From Gemmatimonadota bacterium (GTDB lineage: Bacteria; Gemmatimonadota; Gemmatimonadetes; Longimicrobiales; Gaopeijiaceae), in NCBI GenBank assembly GCA_007126575.1, contig SLBA01000043.1, positions 1 to 50,351 on the forward strand: DNA of 50,351 nt, given 5' to 3'. A program made the translations under genes and the position numbers. The notes below the pieces were generated by a model. It was not told where the DNA came from. It saw only the letters and a program-made list of their open reading frames with translations, and ran no database searches. Positions within the stretch are counted from its first letter, which is position 1, and every line of letters starts with the position of its first letter. Of the stretch, positions 1 through 2,422 are shown in pieces.

Positions 1-74
1 ACCTGATCTGTATACATATATGATGCTGACCACGAGACATGAGTCCATCGTCTTCACCTGAAAGGAGGAACGTC
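1..74 (+). promoter_or_regulatory. upstream region and ribosome binding site of the Cys-rich peptide operon
   Basis: The first 25 bases are AT-rich for this window and contain TATACAT and TATATG strings that could serve as a -10 box; any -35 box would lie near or before the window edge. A strong Shine-Dalgarno AAAGGAGG at 60-67 sits 7 bases before the ATG at 75. This decides the start against an in-frame ATG at 39, which has no comparable site. Confidence 0.4.
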
Positions 75-383
75 ATGATCGGATTTCTGACCGCTGCGTT
101 GAGGAGGGACACAACGCCGATCCTCGGGGCGTTGGTCGCCGCCGCGTTTACGGCCCTCGCGCTTTTCGTGCTCACGCTCTCGCCGGCGCAGGCAGAGATG
201 ATGTCGATGGCAACTGGGGACTGCGCGGTTCCTGGGGGGCCGCTCGCCGAAGAGTGCTGCGAGTGCAACTTCAATGACGAGGGCATCGGACTCTGCTTCA
301 AGTCCGAATTTATCGGGGAATACGATCGGTGTGGTCAGGGGTGGTGCCCGGATCTGAAGAACTGTCAAGTTTTGGTGGAGTGA
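75..383 (+). CDS. small secreted cysteine-rich protein
   Basis: This 102-residue protein has a clear Sec signal peptide: an Arg-rich n-region, a long Ala/Leu hydrophobic core and a cleavage site after SPAQA near residue 40. The mature part is only about 62 residues and contains eight cysteines, including CCEC, so it is probably a disulfide-stabilised mini-protein outside the cytoplasm. I do not recognise the family. It is the first gene of a tight operon: the next gene starts 7 bases after its stop and encodes an exported six-bladed propeller, and the third encodes a thioredoxin-like protein. By inference it could be a secreted peptide whose folding or processing depends on its two partners, similar in layout to the small-peptide/propeller clusters (NVEALA/BF3164-type) known in Bacteroidales. 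No function is shown by sequence alone. The start is set by the strong AAAGGAGG. Confidence 0.75.
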   Translation: MIGFLTAALRRDTTPILGALVAAAFTALALFVLTLSPAQAEMMSMATGDCAVPGGPLAEECCECNFNDEGIGLCFKSEFIGEYDRCGQGWCPDLKNCQVLVE

Positions 384-390
384 GCCGCTC

Positions 391-1545
391 ATGCGAGCGG
401 GTTTCCGGCCAGTATGCACACTGTTTGGATGGGGATTGGGCGTGCTACTCGGAGCAGTCCTGGGGGCCGAGCCCCTTCATGCCCAGAACCCTCCAGACGC
501 GACTTTCCCCATTGGCTCCGAGGTTTCCCCGATGTCGGAATCCGGGGGAACCCTCGAATTCGTACTGGTGGGGGAACTCGGCACCGCCGATGGTGATGGA
601 GCGCTCGGACGAATCCGTGACGTGGCGGTTTCCGGTGATTCGATCGCTGCGGTGCTGGACGATTTCGGATGCTTGATTCACCTGTTCGACCTCCCGAGTG
701 GAGCGTTTCGCAGGGTGCTCGGGGGGTGCGGAGAAGGTCCCGGAGAACTGCTCCGACCGATGAGCGTCGCGTTCATGGGGGACACGCTCGCAGTGTCCGA
801 TATGGGGAAACGCAGGTTGGTCCTGCTGGATGGTGAAGGGAGTGAGGTGCGAAGCGTGCTCTATCCCTCGGAGTTGGAGAACGCTCCACTCGCACAAATC
901 GATGCCCGGGATGGTCTTATCCTGTGGCAGCCTCACTGGATCGGATCGTCGCCCGAAAGGAATCTGATTCTGGCTGAGCGTGCTGGCGACAGGATGTTGG
1001 CCGGTGTACCTGACCCGGAGATCTCCTTCACGCATCCGGATGCGGCTAGGCTACGCCTGGTCGGAGGCACCTGTGCGTTTCGAGATGTGCCGGAGGTCGC
1101 CGTGTCCAACCGCTGGGCCGTAGAACTTCTTATTCTGGACACTGCCCTCGTCCCGCGCTATCGGCATCGGGAGGATACAGCTGGCTTTGACCCCGAGCCG
1201 GTACCCCCGCAGTACGGAGGCGGGTGGTCCTCGGGGTTCCGTGGCTCTCCGGGACCGGCATGCTCCGACTCGACCGCGCTCTGGGCCTTCCGGCGGTACG
1301 ACGCCGAGGCTCTCGCGGAGGGGACTCTTCATGTCGAAAGGGCGCTCCAGATCCTCGCGACCTCGGACGGCGTGATTCTTGGGCGGCGGGTGGTTGAGGA
1401 CGCATCCTGGCCCGACGTCGCACTTCAAGTGCCGGCCGCAGGGTCCGGGAACCGCTTCTATTTCTTCCAGAACAACTCGGGTCCGTACCCAACCGTGCGA
1501 ATCTATGAGGTTGAGCTTGCGTCGGAAGGGGGTGCCGGGCCATGA
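391..1545 (+). CDS. exported six-bladed beta-propeller protein
   Basis: This is a 384-residue protein with an N-terminal signal peptide (hydrophobic stretch about residues 10-30, ending PLHAQ). After it come repeated propeller-blade strings: RIRDVAVSGDSIAAVLDD, LIHLFDLPSGAFRRVLGG, GEGPGELLRPMSVAF and DTLAVSDMGKRRLVLLD. The GxGPGEL phrase followed by a new blade is typical of the NHL-like six-bladed propellers that are very numerous in Gemmatimonadota and Bacteroidota. These propellers usually act as ligand- or protein-binding scaffolds, and no catalytic residues are evident. Two cysteine-containing segments in the second half (GGTCAFRDV, GPACSDST) suggest disulfides. It lies between the Cys-rich peptide gene and the thioredoxin-like gene, overlapping the latter by 4 bases, so the three are almost certainly co-expressed. 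A role in binding or presenting the small peptide is inference. Confidence 0.8.
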   Translation: MRAGFRPVCTLFGWGLGVLLGAVLGAEPLHAQNPPDATFPIGSEVSPMSESGGTLEFVLVGELGTADGDGALGRIRDVAVSGDSIAAVLDDFGCLIHLFDLPSGAFRRVLGGCGEGPGELLRPMSVAFMGDTLAVSDMGKRRLVLLDGEGSEVRSVLYPSELENAPLAQIDARDGLILWQPHWIGSSPERNLILAERAGDRMLAGVPDPEISFTHPDAARLRLVGGTCAFRDVPEVAVSNRWAVELLILDTALVPRYRHREDTAGFDPEPVPPQYGGGWSSGFRGSPGPACSDSTALWAFRRYDAEALAEGTLHVERALQILATSDGVILGRRVVEDASWPDVALQVPAAGSGNRFYFFQNNSGPYPTVRIYEVELASEGGAGP

Positions 1546-2150
1546 TAATCCGGGTGTTATTAATCGCGTCAGTGTGTCTTCTTGTTGCTTCTCTTGGGAT
1601 AAAATTCATGGAAGCGCGACAACATACTCAAGAGCTGGCCGCAGTTTTGAATAATGAGAAAATCCGGGTGGATGAACTTGAGACCATCTTGGGTGGGGTG
1701 GTCGACAGACTCACGACTCTCACACCCATCCCTTGGACGATAGCTGGATTCGACGTTGTGGGCGAAGAACGTGTCGAGTTTCATTTCGCCGAGTTGGATA
1801 TCATCTACAAGCTCCGGACGAATTGTCGCTTCTCATCCGAAAACGTCCCGATTCTGAACCGGATGCGCCGCGACGGGTACCGCGTACTCGGTGTCGTGCC
1901 CGACGACTCCCGGGCGGCCGTTCGCATTTTTTCAGAGACGCATCGGACTGAATTTCCCGTGGTGGCAGAGCCGGACGGTGTTGGAATGAGCATACTTCCC
2001 AGGCGAGCCACCCCACTGACCGTTCGCCTGTTAGAGGGTGAAATCGTGGACTTGATGCTGGGGGCACTCGACGGTGCGCGCGTTACGTCCCCCCTGGTAA
2101 TGGACCCGCCCGAGGGATCGAGGATTTCGACCGGCGCCCCCCTGCGTTGA
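1542..2150 (+). CDS. membrane-anchored thioredoxin-like (TlpA/redoxin fold) protein with a single cysteine
   Basis: This 202-residue protein begins with one hydrophobic anchor (residues 2-20), then a short coiled region (about 25-55). A thioredoxin-fold core follows at about 85-175. The pattern YKLRTNCRFSSENVPILNRM, then YRVLGVVPDDSRAAVRIFSE, then FPVVAEPDG matches the TlpA/AhpC order of active site, helix, strand, helix and FPV strand. Where TlpA proteins have CxxC, this one has CRFS, so only one active-site Cys remains. Monothiol action (isomerase-like or peroxidatic) or loss of redox function are both possible. Its start overlaps the propeller gene by 4 bases (ATGA), which indicates translational coupling. 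The opening 120 bases are noticeably AT-richer than the rest of the window. The extracytoplasmic placement fits a role with the Cys-rich peptide, but this is inference. Confidence 0.7.
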   Translation: MIIRVLLIASVCLLVASLGIKFMEARQHTQELAAVLNNEKIRVDELETILGGVVDRLTTLTPIPWTIAGFDVVGEERVEFHFAELDIIYKLRTNCRFSSENVPILNRMRRDGYRVLGVVPDDSRAAVRIFSETHRTEFPVVAEPDGVGMSILPRRATPLTVRLLEGEIVDLMLGALDGARVTSPLVMDPPEGSRISTGAPLR

Positions 2151-2159
2151 CCCTCTCCG

Positions 2160-2422
2160 CTACACCTTCAGCACCCCCCGGAATCCCCTTGCGGCGTAAT
2201 AGGACTCGGCCCCGATATGATATACGAGGACGGTGTCGTAGCGTCGATCGCAGAAGAAGGAGTCGCCCAGCCGGCGGAAGCGGGCGGGGGTCTTCACCCA
2301 GCTCGATGTCTTCGTCTCGAACTCTCGAGTTCCTGCAGCCGACAGTGTGCGTCTTCGGTCAGCAGGTCGACGCCCATGGCCGCCGCCATGTTCATCCCGA
2401 CTTGTTCGTCACGAGCGGGCAG
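2160..2422 (-). pseudogene. frameshifted C-terminal remnant of a DUF4256 protein
   Basis: Read on the minus strand, one frame gives NMAAAMGVDLLTEDAHCRLQ, and a second frame then gives FETKTSSWVKTPARFRRLG and RRYDTVLVYHIGAESYYAAR, ending GFRGVLKV and a stop at 2160-2162. These strings together correspond, from memory of the family, to the last 80-90 residues of DUF4256 proteins (about 190 residues, function unknown). They are collinear only if a frameshift is placed near 2322-2332. No start codon or N-terminal half is recognisable upstream. It ends 9 bases from the stop of the thioredoxin-like gene, on the opposite strand. A sequencing error could explain the frameshift but not the missing N-terminal half. 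Confidence 0.7.

Follow-up and report, generated by a model that had tools for sequence, protein, structure and literature searches.

A candidate operon-like unit of an exported cysteine-rich mini-protein, a propeller and a thioredoxin-like protein in Gemmatimonadota

Genes of the locus

Three adjacent genes are found at the beginning of the window (the whole analysed stretch of 50,351 nucleotides from a Gemmatimonadota bacterium). The window starts at base 1 of contig C156, the region 5' of it being outside the view, and the host assembly comprises 3.68 Mb in 205 contigs. The features are collected in Table 1. The propeller ORF begins 7 bases past the stop codon of the peptide, and the ORFs of the propeller and the redoxin overlap by 4 bases (ATGA). 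An earlier note on this DNA had given the three frames, their spacing and their overlap exactly to the base. It had also described the stretch as AT-richer in parts than its surroundings, and this holds for each of the genes (GC content of 60.5% for the peptide, 63.2% for the propeller and 56.0% for the redoxin vs 68.1% for the window). The decaying DNA which it placed nearby was confirmed in part: a stranded, truncated C-terminal third of a DUF4256 gene lies beside the unit (its coordinates in Table 1 are approximate).

Table 1. Features of the three-gene unit and its 3' flank in the window
Feature	Position	Strand	Supporting evidence
Ribosome-binding-like AAAGGAGGAA 5' of the peptide start	61–70	+	Sequence; matching stretch in G001 before the remnant start codon
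Gene of the putatively exported eight-cysteine mini-protein, 102 aa (leader ~residues 1–40, mature part ~62 aa)	75–383	+	Homologues with the same cysteine framework in G228, G389, G325, G260 (x2), G198 (x2) and G336
Cysteine framework C-x10-CC-x-C-x9-C-x11-C-x4-C-x5-C	222–365	+	
Putatively exported NHL/DUF5128-like six-bladed propeller, four clade-invariant cysteines (residues 94, 113, 228, 291)	391–1545	+	
Redoxin: ResA/TlpA-like thioredoxin fold with predicted N-terminal membrane anchor; active site C95-R-F-S98; conserved Pro158 at the cis-proline position	1542–2150	+	
DUF4256 gene remnant, truncated; flank, outside the unit	2165–2340	-	PF14066 positions 118–173, E 1.3e-24

The eight cysteines of the mini-protein (residues 50, 61, 62, 64, 74, 86, 91 and 97) all follow the string SPAQA and belong to the mature part, whose length the earlier note had stated correctly. 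The mini-protein is presumably exported and cleaved, and its cysteines would be paired in disulfides. None of the Pfam and NCBIfam models matched the mini-protein family. The NVEALA model PF14055 had no match in the window peptide (P0001), in the sister peptides scanned or in the whole genome, so that the peptide cannot be counted as a member of the NVEALA family with which the earlier note had compared it. The AlphaFold2 model of the peptide was unusable (mean pLDDT 53).

The redoxin contains one N-terminal hydrophobic helix, and its sole cysteine besides C95 is C12, inside this helix. The active site is indeed CRFS and not CxxC. The predicted model (mean pLDDT 74) shows a thioredoxin domain preceded by a long N-terminal helix; ResA is its best match by Foldseek (E 2.9e-9), and ResA 3c71 is the best match of the redoxin profile (E 1.8e-13). 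C95 is located at the helix start, and the cis-proline position is invariably occupied by P158. According to the model, the protein thus shares the thioredoxin fold and the N-terminal membrane anchor of the ResA/TlpA group; the CxxC site of that group is present in G228, G389 and G325 and is replaced by CRFS in the window. Overall, CxxS is found in three of the six redoxin lineages, namely CRFS in the window, CPYS in G100 and CPWS in G260, G198 and G336. The redoxins of the units do not form a supported single clade, those of the G260 type being very divergent.

The DUF5128 model matched five of the six propeller clade members weakly (best E 4.6e-5), the window protein remaining below the cut-off with E 0.062. 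A profile of the wider propeller family, which takes in paralogues, matched NHL six-bladed propellers of the PDB at 7.3e-44. A tree of 33 propellers places those of the units in the window, G228, G260, G198 and G389, together with a solo propeller of G001, in one clade with support of 98/95. The aligned members of the clade, the window propeller included, share four invariant cysteines (C94, C113, C228 and C291). The leaders of sister propellers end in a lipobox-like cysteine (e.g. LGC in G260 and G198), and the window has LGA at this place; judging by this string, the window propeller may be soluble. Propeller genes abound in the host genome, where the propeller query gave 19 matches. The other propeller loci read in it have no adjoining small exported Cys-rich frame or redoxin of this type, and a search of the same genome found neither a second copy of the peptide nor a second close copy of the redoxin.

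Recurrence of the unit and coupling of its genes

Searches of Gemmatimonadota genomes guided by the redoxin, the peptide or the propeller bring the genomes with the same three genes, adjacent and on one strand, to seven: that of the window, G228, G389, G325, G260, G198 and G336. They represent five genera, the window's included, from the families coded f1, f4, f5 and f7. The three genes therefore make up a conserved unit, as had been supposed, and this unit is real yet rare in Gemmatimonadota. Its gene order varies. It is peptide-propeller-redoxin in the window, G228 and G325 (the latter, found by the propeller-clade profile, mirrors the layout of the window down to the ATGA overlap of propeller and redoxin), propeller-redoxin-peptide in G389, and redoxin (CPWS)-peptide A-propeller-peptide B in G260 and G198. 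The differing order argues against mere inherited synteny, and chance adjacency was rejected, as the unit recurs in five genera and in different arrangements.

G100 has a further arrangement, reached via the search with the window redoxin: a propeller and a CPYS redoxin line up with a small exported protein. The eight cysteines of the G100 peptide have another spacing and the propeller falls outside the clade; by its sequence the locus may be either a variant of the unit or an independent assembly. On the same contig (L055, 8604–10342) a second propeller is overlapped by a different membrane-anchored redoxin (CTFC); no Cys-rich peptide was seen beside it, the contig end being close. Another propeller frame of this cluster (L055, 5355–7226, minus strand) runs on into sequence resembling a transposase, suggesting that a mobile element inserted here.

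The window peptide first looked like an orphan because the search with its single sequence returned only noise. The redoxin as a single query found just two further genomes of the order, and the scan of genome contigs returned G100 again only. G389 and G228 were reached with a two-sequence redoxin profile, for which 395 genomes of the phylum were scanned; a peptide profile built on the window, G228 and G389 then brought up G260, G198 and later G336. Weak matches of the peptide profile in G115, G155, G190, G229, G325:C30 and G100:C43 were discarded, as they had no fitting frame or no export leader. Plasmid searches using the peptide and the redoxin gave no match, nor did PADLOC. The survey covers a sampled part of the Gemmatimonadota genomes and hardly anything beyond the phylum; many of the assemblies are fragmented and of modest completeness, and absence from a single genome carries little weight. 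The literature searched (on NVEALA, or on propellers together with Cys-rich proteins and TlpA or Gemmatimonadota; mostly outside subscription papers) contained no such unit, which is undescribed as far as this literature goes.

The consensus framework across the units is C-x6-10-CC-x-C-x6-14-C-x10-11-C-x4-10-C-x3-6-C. The window peptide has its eight cysteines with the CC-x-C core behind an export leader, and the other units differ from it in loop lengths only, in line with the expectation that cysteines are kept and loops vary. Behind a hydrophobic leader the framework occurs nine times in 590 kb (fetched loci and window), always in units, and zero times in three block-shuffled copies of these 590 kb; the loci were picked for carrying one of the three genes, and the comparison is a test of neighbourhood, not of genome-wide frequency. 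A framework match in G282 was rejected as a spurious frame without a leader.

Peptide A of G260 and that of G198 differ by 11 synonymous and 2 nonsynonymous changes, which corresponds to a dN/dS of 0.052; the values for peptide B, propeller and redoxin of this pair are 0.164, 0.22 and 0.26. Strong purifying selection acts on the peptide frames. The values of 0.05 and 0.16, taken from G260/G198 because the searches turned up no peptide-bearing close relative of the window, are far from the ratio near 1 which the earlier note had named as telling against a conserved peptide frame.

Of the propeller-clade loci whose flanks can be read, seven (the seven units named above) have peptide and redoxin together and six have neither, namely G001, G282 (a tandem pair), G073, G076, G079 and G308; not one carries either of them singly. 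These counts are few and the loci partly related, with five genera having the pair and four having the locus without it. In G075 only a propeller fragment is present. Thus, the redoxin travels with the peptide, both or neither being found in all 13 readable loci: the peptide is absent from about half of the clade loci and the redoxin is missing there as well. Peptide and redoxin are so a tight pair and the propeller is a separable partner, the role of which is independent of an adjoining peptide, as G001 and other clade members stand alone. The possibility that propellers and redoxins mostly occur without a Cys-rich gene, raised earlier as an objection, applies to propellers in general and to roughly half of the clade loci; it is false for the redoxins beside clade propellers. 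The link to a peptide is limited to this propeller clade.

Redoxins paired with small peptides were also seen outside the clade. In G152 (L056, 7597–8444, minus strand) a CPYC redoxin is followed by a small exported peptide with six cysteines, and in G271 (L081, 6736–7683, plus strand) a CRFC redoxin is followed by one with eight cysteines; a propeller was not found near either pair. These two loci may belong to a wider theme of a redoxin plus a Cys-rich peptide. A different kind of neighbour is encoded in G075 (L182, 10870–11265, minus strand) just 5' of another propeller gene. This protein of 131 residues has at least 13 cysteines, a leader of twin-arginine-like type (SRRGF) and no Pfam match, and possibly represents a second class of Cys-rich partner.

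The solo propeller of G001, a genome of the same genus, has 85% DNA identity to the window from window base 376 to 1553. The homology resumes upstream at window bases 53–88, ending with ATG GTC GGA TTT CT. What G001 retains of the peptide gene is the ribosome-binding stretch, the start, the first five codons, the last codons and the stop (ATG GTC GGA TTT CTA CTG GAC TGA); the local alignment of this remnant scores 37 vs a maximum of 24 in 2000 shuffles. The redoxin is absent and the propeller frame is intact, the dN/dS between the window and G001 propellers being 0.27, an estimate which spans both lineages. The sequence fits a loss of the peptide from G001 by internal in-frame deletion, and a recent insertion of the peptide in the window genome is less likely since both gene ends are retained in G001. 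As the remnant is in frame and the propeller intact, the unit probably predates the split within the genus, the propeller outliving its partners. The suggestion that the unit is an acquired module is accordingly only half sustained: acquisition is plausible over long times, given the patchy distribution and the lower GC content, and within the genus of the window loss in G001 is favoured over recent gain. The solo propeller of G001 is one of four propeller genes within 7 kb (L054, 980–7718), and a HepT-like/nucleotidyltransferase-like pair, recognised by eye, is situated between propellers of this cluster.

Proposed function and alternative explanations

We regard it as moderately probable that the locus is an operon-like unit making and handling one exported disulfide-rich mini-protein. 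The 102-residue precursor would exit via the Sec route and be trimmed to ~62 residues with eight cysteines and four possible disulfides. Outside the inner membrane the anchored thioredoxin-like protein would act on it. With a CxxS site, the lone nucleophile C95 could do no more than make mixed disulfides with the peptide, so that the redoxin would reshuffle wrong pairings or keep the peptide bound until the correct pairing is reached, the disulfides themselves coming from the general oxidant of the cell. The CxxC sisters (CPAC, CAHC, CRAC) could do likewise with their resolving cysteine. The propeller, with its four conserved cysteines and, in sister units, a lipoprotein-like leader, would presumably bind the folded peptide and is its likely docking partner or presenter at the envelope.

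Two parts of this scheme can be argued from the comparisons above. The joint presence and absence of redoxin and peptide, together with the redoxin-peptide pairs outside the clade, make the peptide the likely client of the redoxin. The single nucleophilic cysteine C95 suggests an isomerising or holding role, and by analogy isomerase or holdase is a better reading of the CxxS redoxin than oxidant: a CXXS PDI isomerises and neither oxidises nor reduces, and CXXS proteins retain their clients longer (PMC12384036).

Other roles of the mini-protein have to be considered. It might be an antagonistic or signalling peptide which is released to other cells, the redoxin folding it and the propeller serving as immunity or receptor protein. 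Such a role would suit the patchy distribution within genera g1, g85 and g107, the two diverged peptides in G260, and G001, which lost peptide and redoxin yet kept the propeller, as if a receptor or immunity protein outlives its peptide. We find it not very likely, as the unit has no dedicated exporter, leader peptidase or modification enzyme, the selection on the peptide is purifying and not diversifying, and curated family and defence libraries gave no match. Alternatively, the eight cysteines may bind metal instead of forming disulfides, with the ResA/TlpA-like protein keeping them reduced and the propeller receiving the metal or the loaded carrier. ResA and CcmG are reductants in cofactor assembly, and such proteins keep haem and copper sites reduced; both are among the closest folds of the redoxin, CC-x-C clusters are able to bind metal, and CxxC is kept in half of the redoxin lineages. 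CxxS proteins, however, are unable to serve as simple dithiol reductants, the peptides conserve no metal-binding residues besides the cysteines, and no metal transporter or cytochrome gene was recognised in a general reading of the unit flanks, which makes metal binding unlikely.

The remaining two explanations give the propeller a larger part. That the propeller with its four invariant cysteines is the main client of the redoxin, the peptide being incidental, would account for the conservation of cysteines in the unit-clade propellers. The same cysteines are, however, kept by the solo propellers of G001, G282, G073, G076 and G079 with no redoxin adjoining, and the redoxins of G152 and G271 have a Cys-rich peptide and no propeller nearby, so this is very improbable. 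It is hardly to be expected at all that the peptide is the small and the propeller the large subunit of a single periplasmic enzyme or binding complex, for which the redoxin would be the assembly factor, like MauA and MauB with MauD. In methylamine dehydrogenase a Cys-rich small exported protein, a propeller and an anchored thioredoxin-like protein occur together, that is, the same three kinds of part, and the related G271 redoxin matches MauD weakly (E 0.0012, far below the cut-off). Against this, about half of the clade loci consist of the propeller alone, the propeller profile is NHL-like and not of the seven-bladed MauB type, the mature peptides contain no conserved tryptophan, and the window redoxin (P0003) has no MauD match in NCBIfam.

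Returning to the handling of a disulfide-rich mini-protein, we tentatively propose a new family of exported four-disulfide mini-proteins, each with its own tethered, often monothiol isomerase or holdase and a dedicated cysteine-bearing propeller that would receive or present it; this would give bacteria a counterpart, with a single client, of the CXXS PDIs that serve quality control. Exported disulfide-rich mini-proteins of bacteria are seldom recognised because their loops drift past sequence search; here, neighbours and cysteine framework expose a candidate family of this kind in at least four Gemmatimonadota families. The unit offers a small system for testing bacterial CxxS proteins as dedicated isomerases or holdases, and, for a small number of the numerous propellers without an assigned role in Gemmatimonadota genomes, a first candidate partner.

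Comparison with known systems

In Bacteroidales, small exported NVEALA peptide genes adjoin genes of BF3164-type six-bladed propellers. The Gemmatimonadota unit resembles this arrangement in setting the gene of a small, putatively exported peptide next to that of a propeller predicted to be six-bladed, and differs from it by the eight-cysteine framework, the four-cysteine propeller clade, the dedicated redoxin and the missing PF14055 match. From methylamine dehydrogenase maturation it differs in the type of propeller, in a mini-protein without catalytic tryptophans and in a redoxin not matched by the MauD model. With ResA, TlpA and CcmG the window redoxin has in common the predicted fold, the N-terminal anchor, the nucleophilic cysteine at the helix start and the conserved proline; in contrast to them, it has CRFS for CxxC and is coupled to a Cys-rich exported peptide.

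A thioredoxin-like domain and an NHL six-bladed propeller are combined in NHLRC2/SOQ1, the active site facing the propeller (PMC6107167). There the two parts belong to a single polypeptide with a CC(I/V)NC site and have no small Cys-rich partner, whereas in the window they are encoded by separate genes and the site is CRFS.

A parallel in chemistry is provided by ERp44, TMX5 and AGR2/AGR3, which also have a monothiol CXXS site and act in retention or isomerisation of secretory clients (PMC12384036). The CRFS string of the window redoxin is identical to that of human ERp44 and TMX5 (PMC12384036); this coincidence is convergent or accidental, an analogy of chemistry and not of descent. Those proteins belong to the eukaryotic PDI family and serve secretory clients, whereas the window unit has one linked candidate client.
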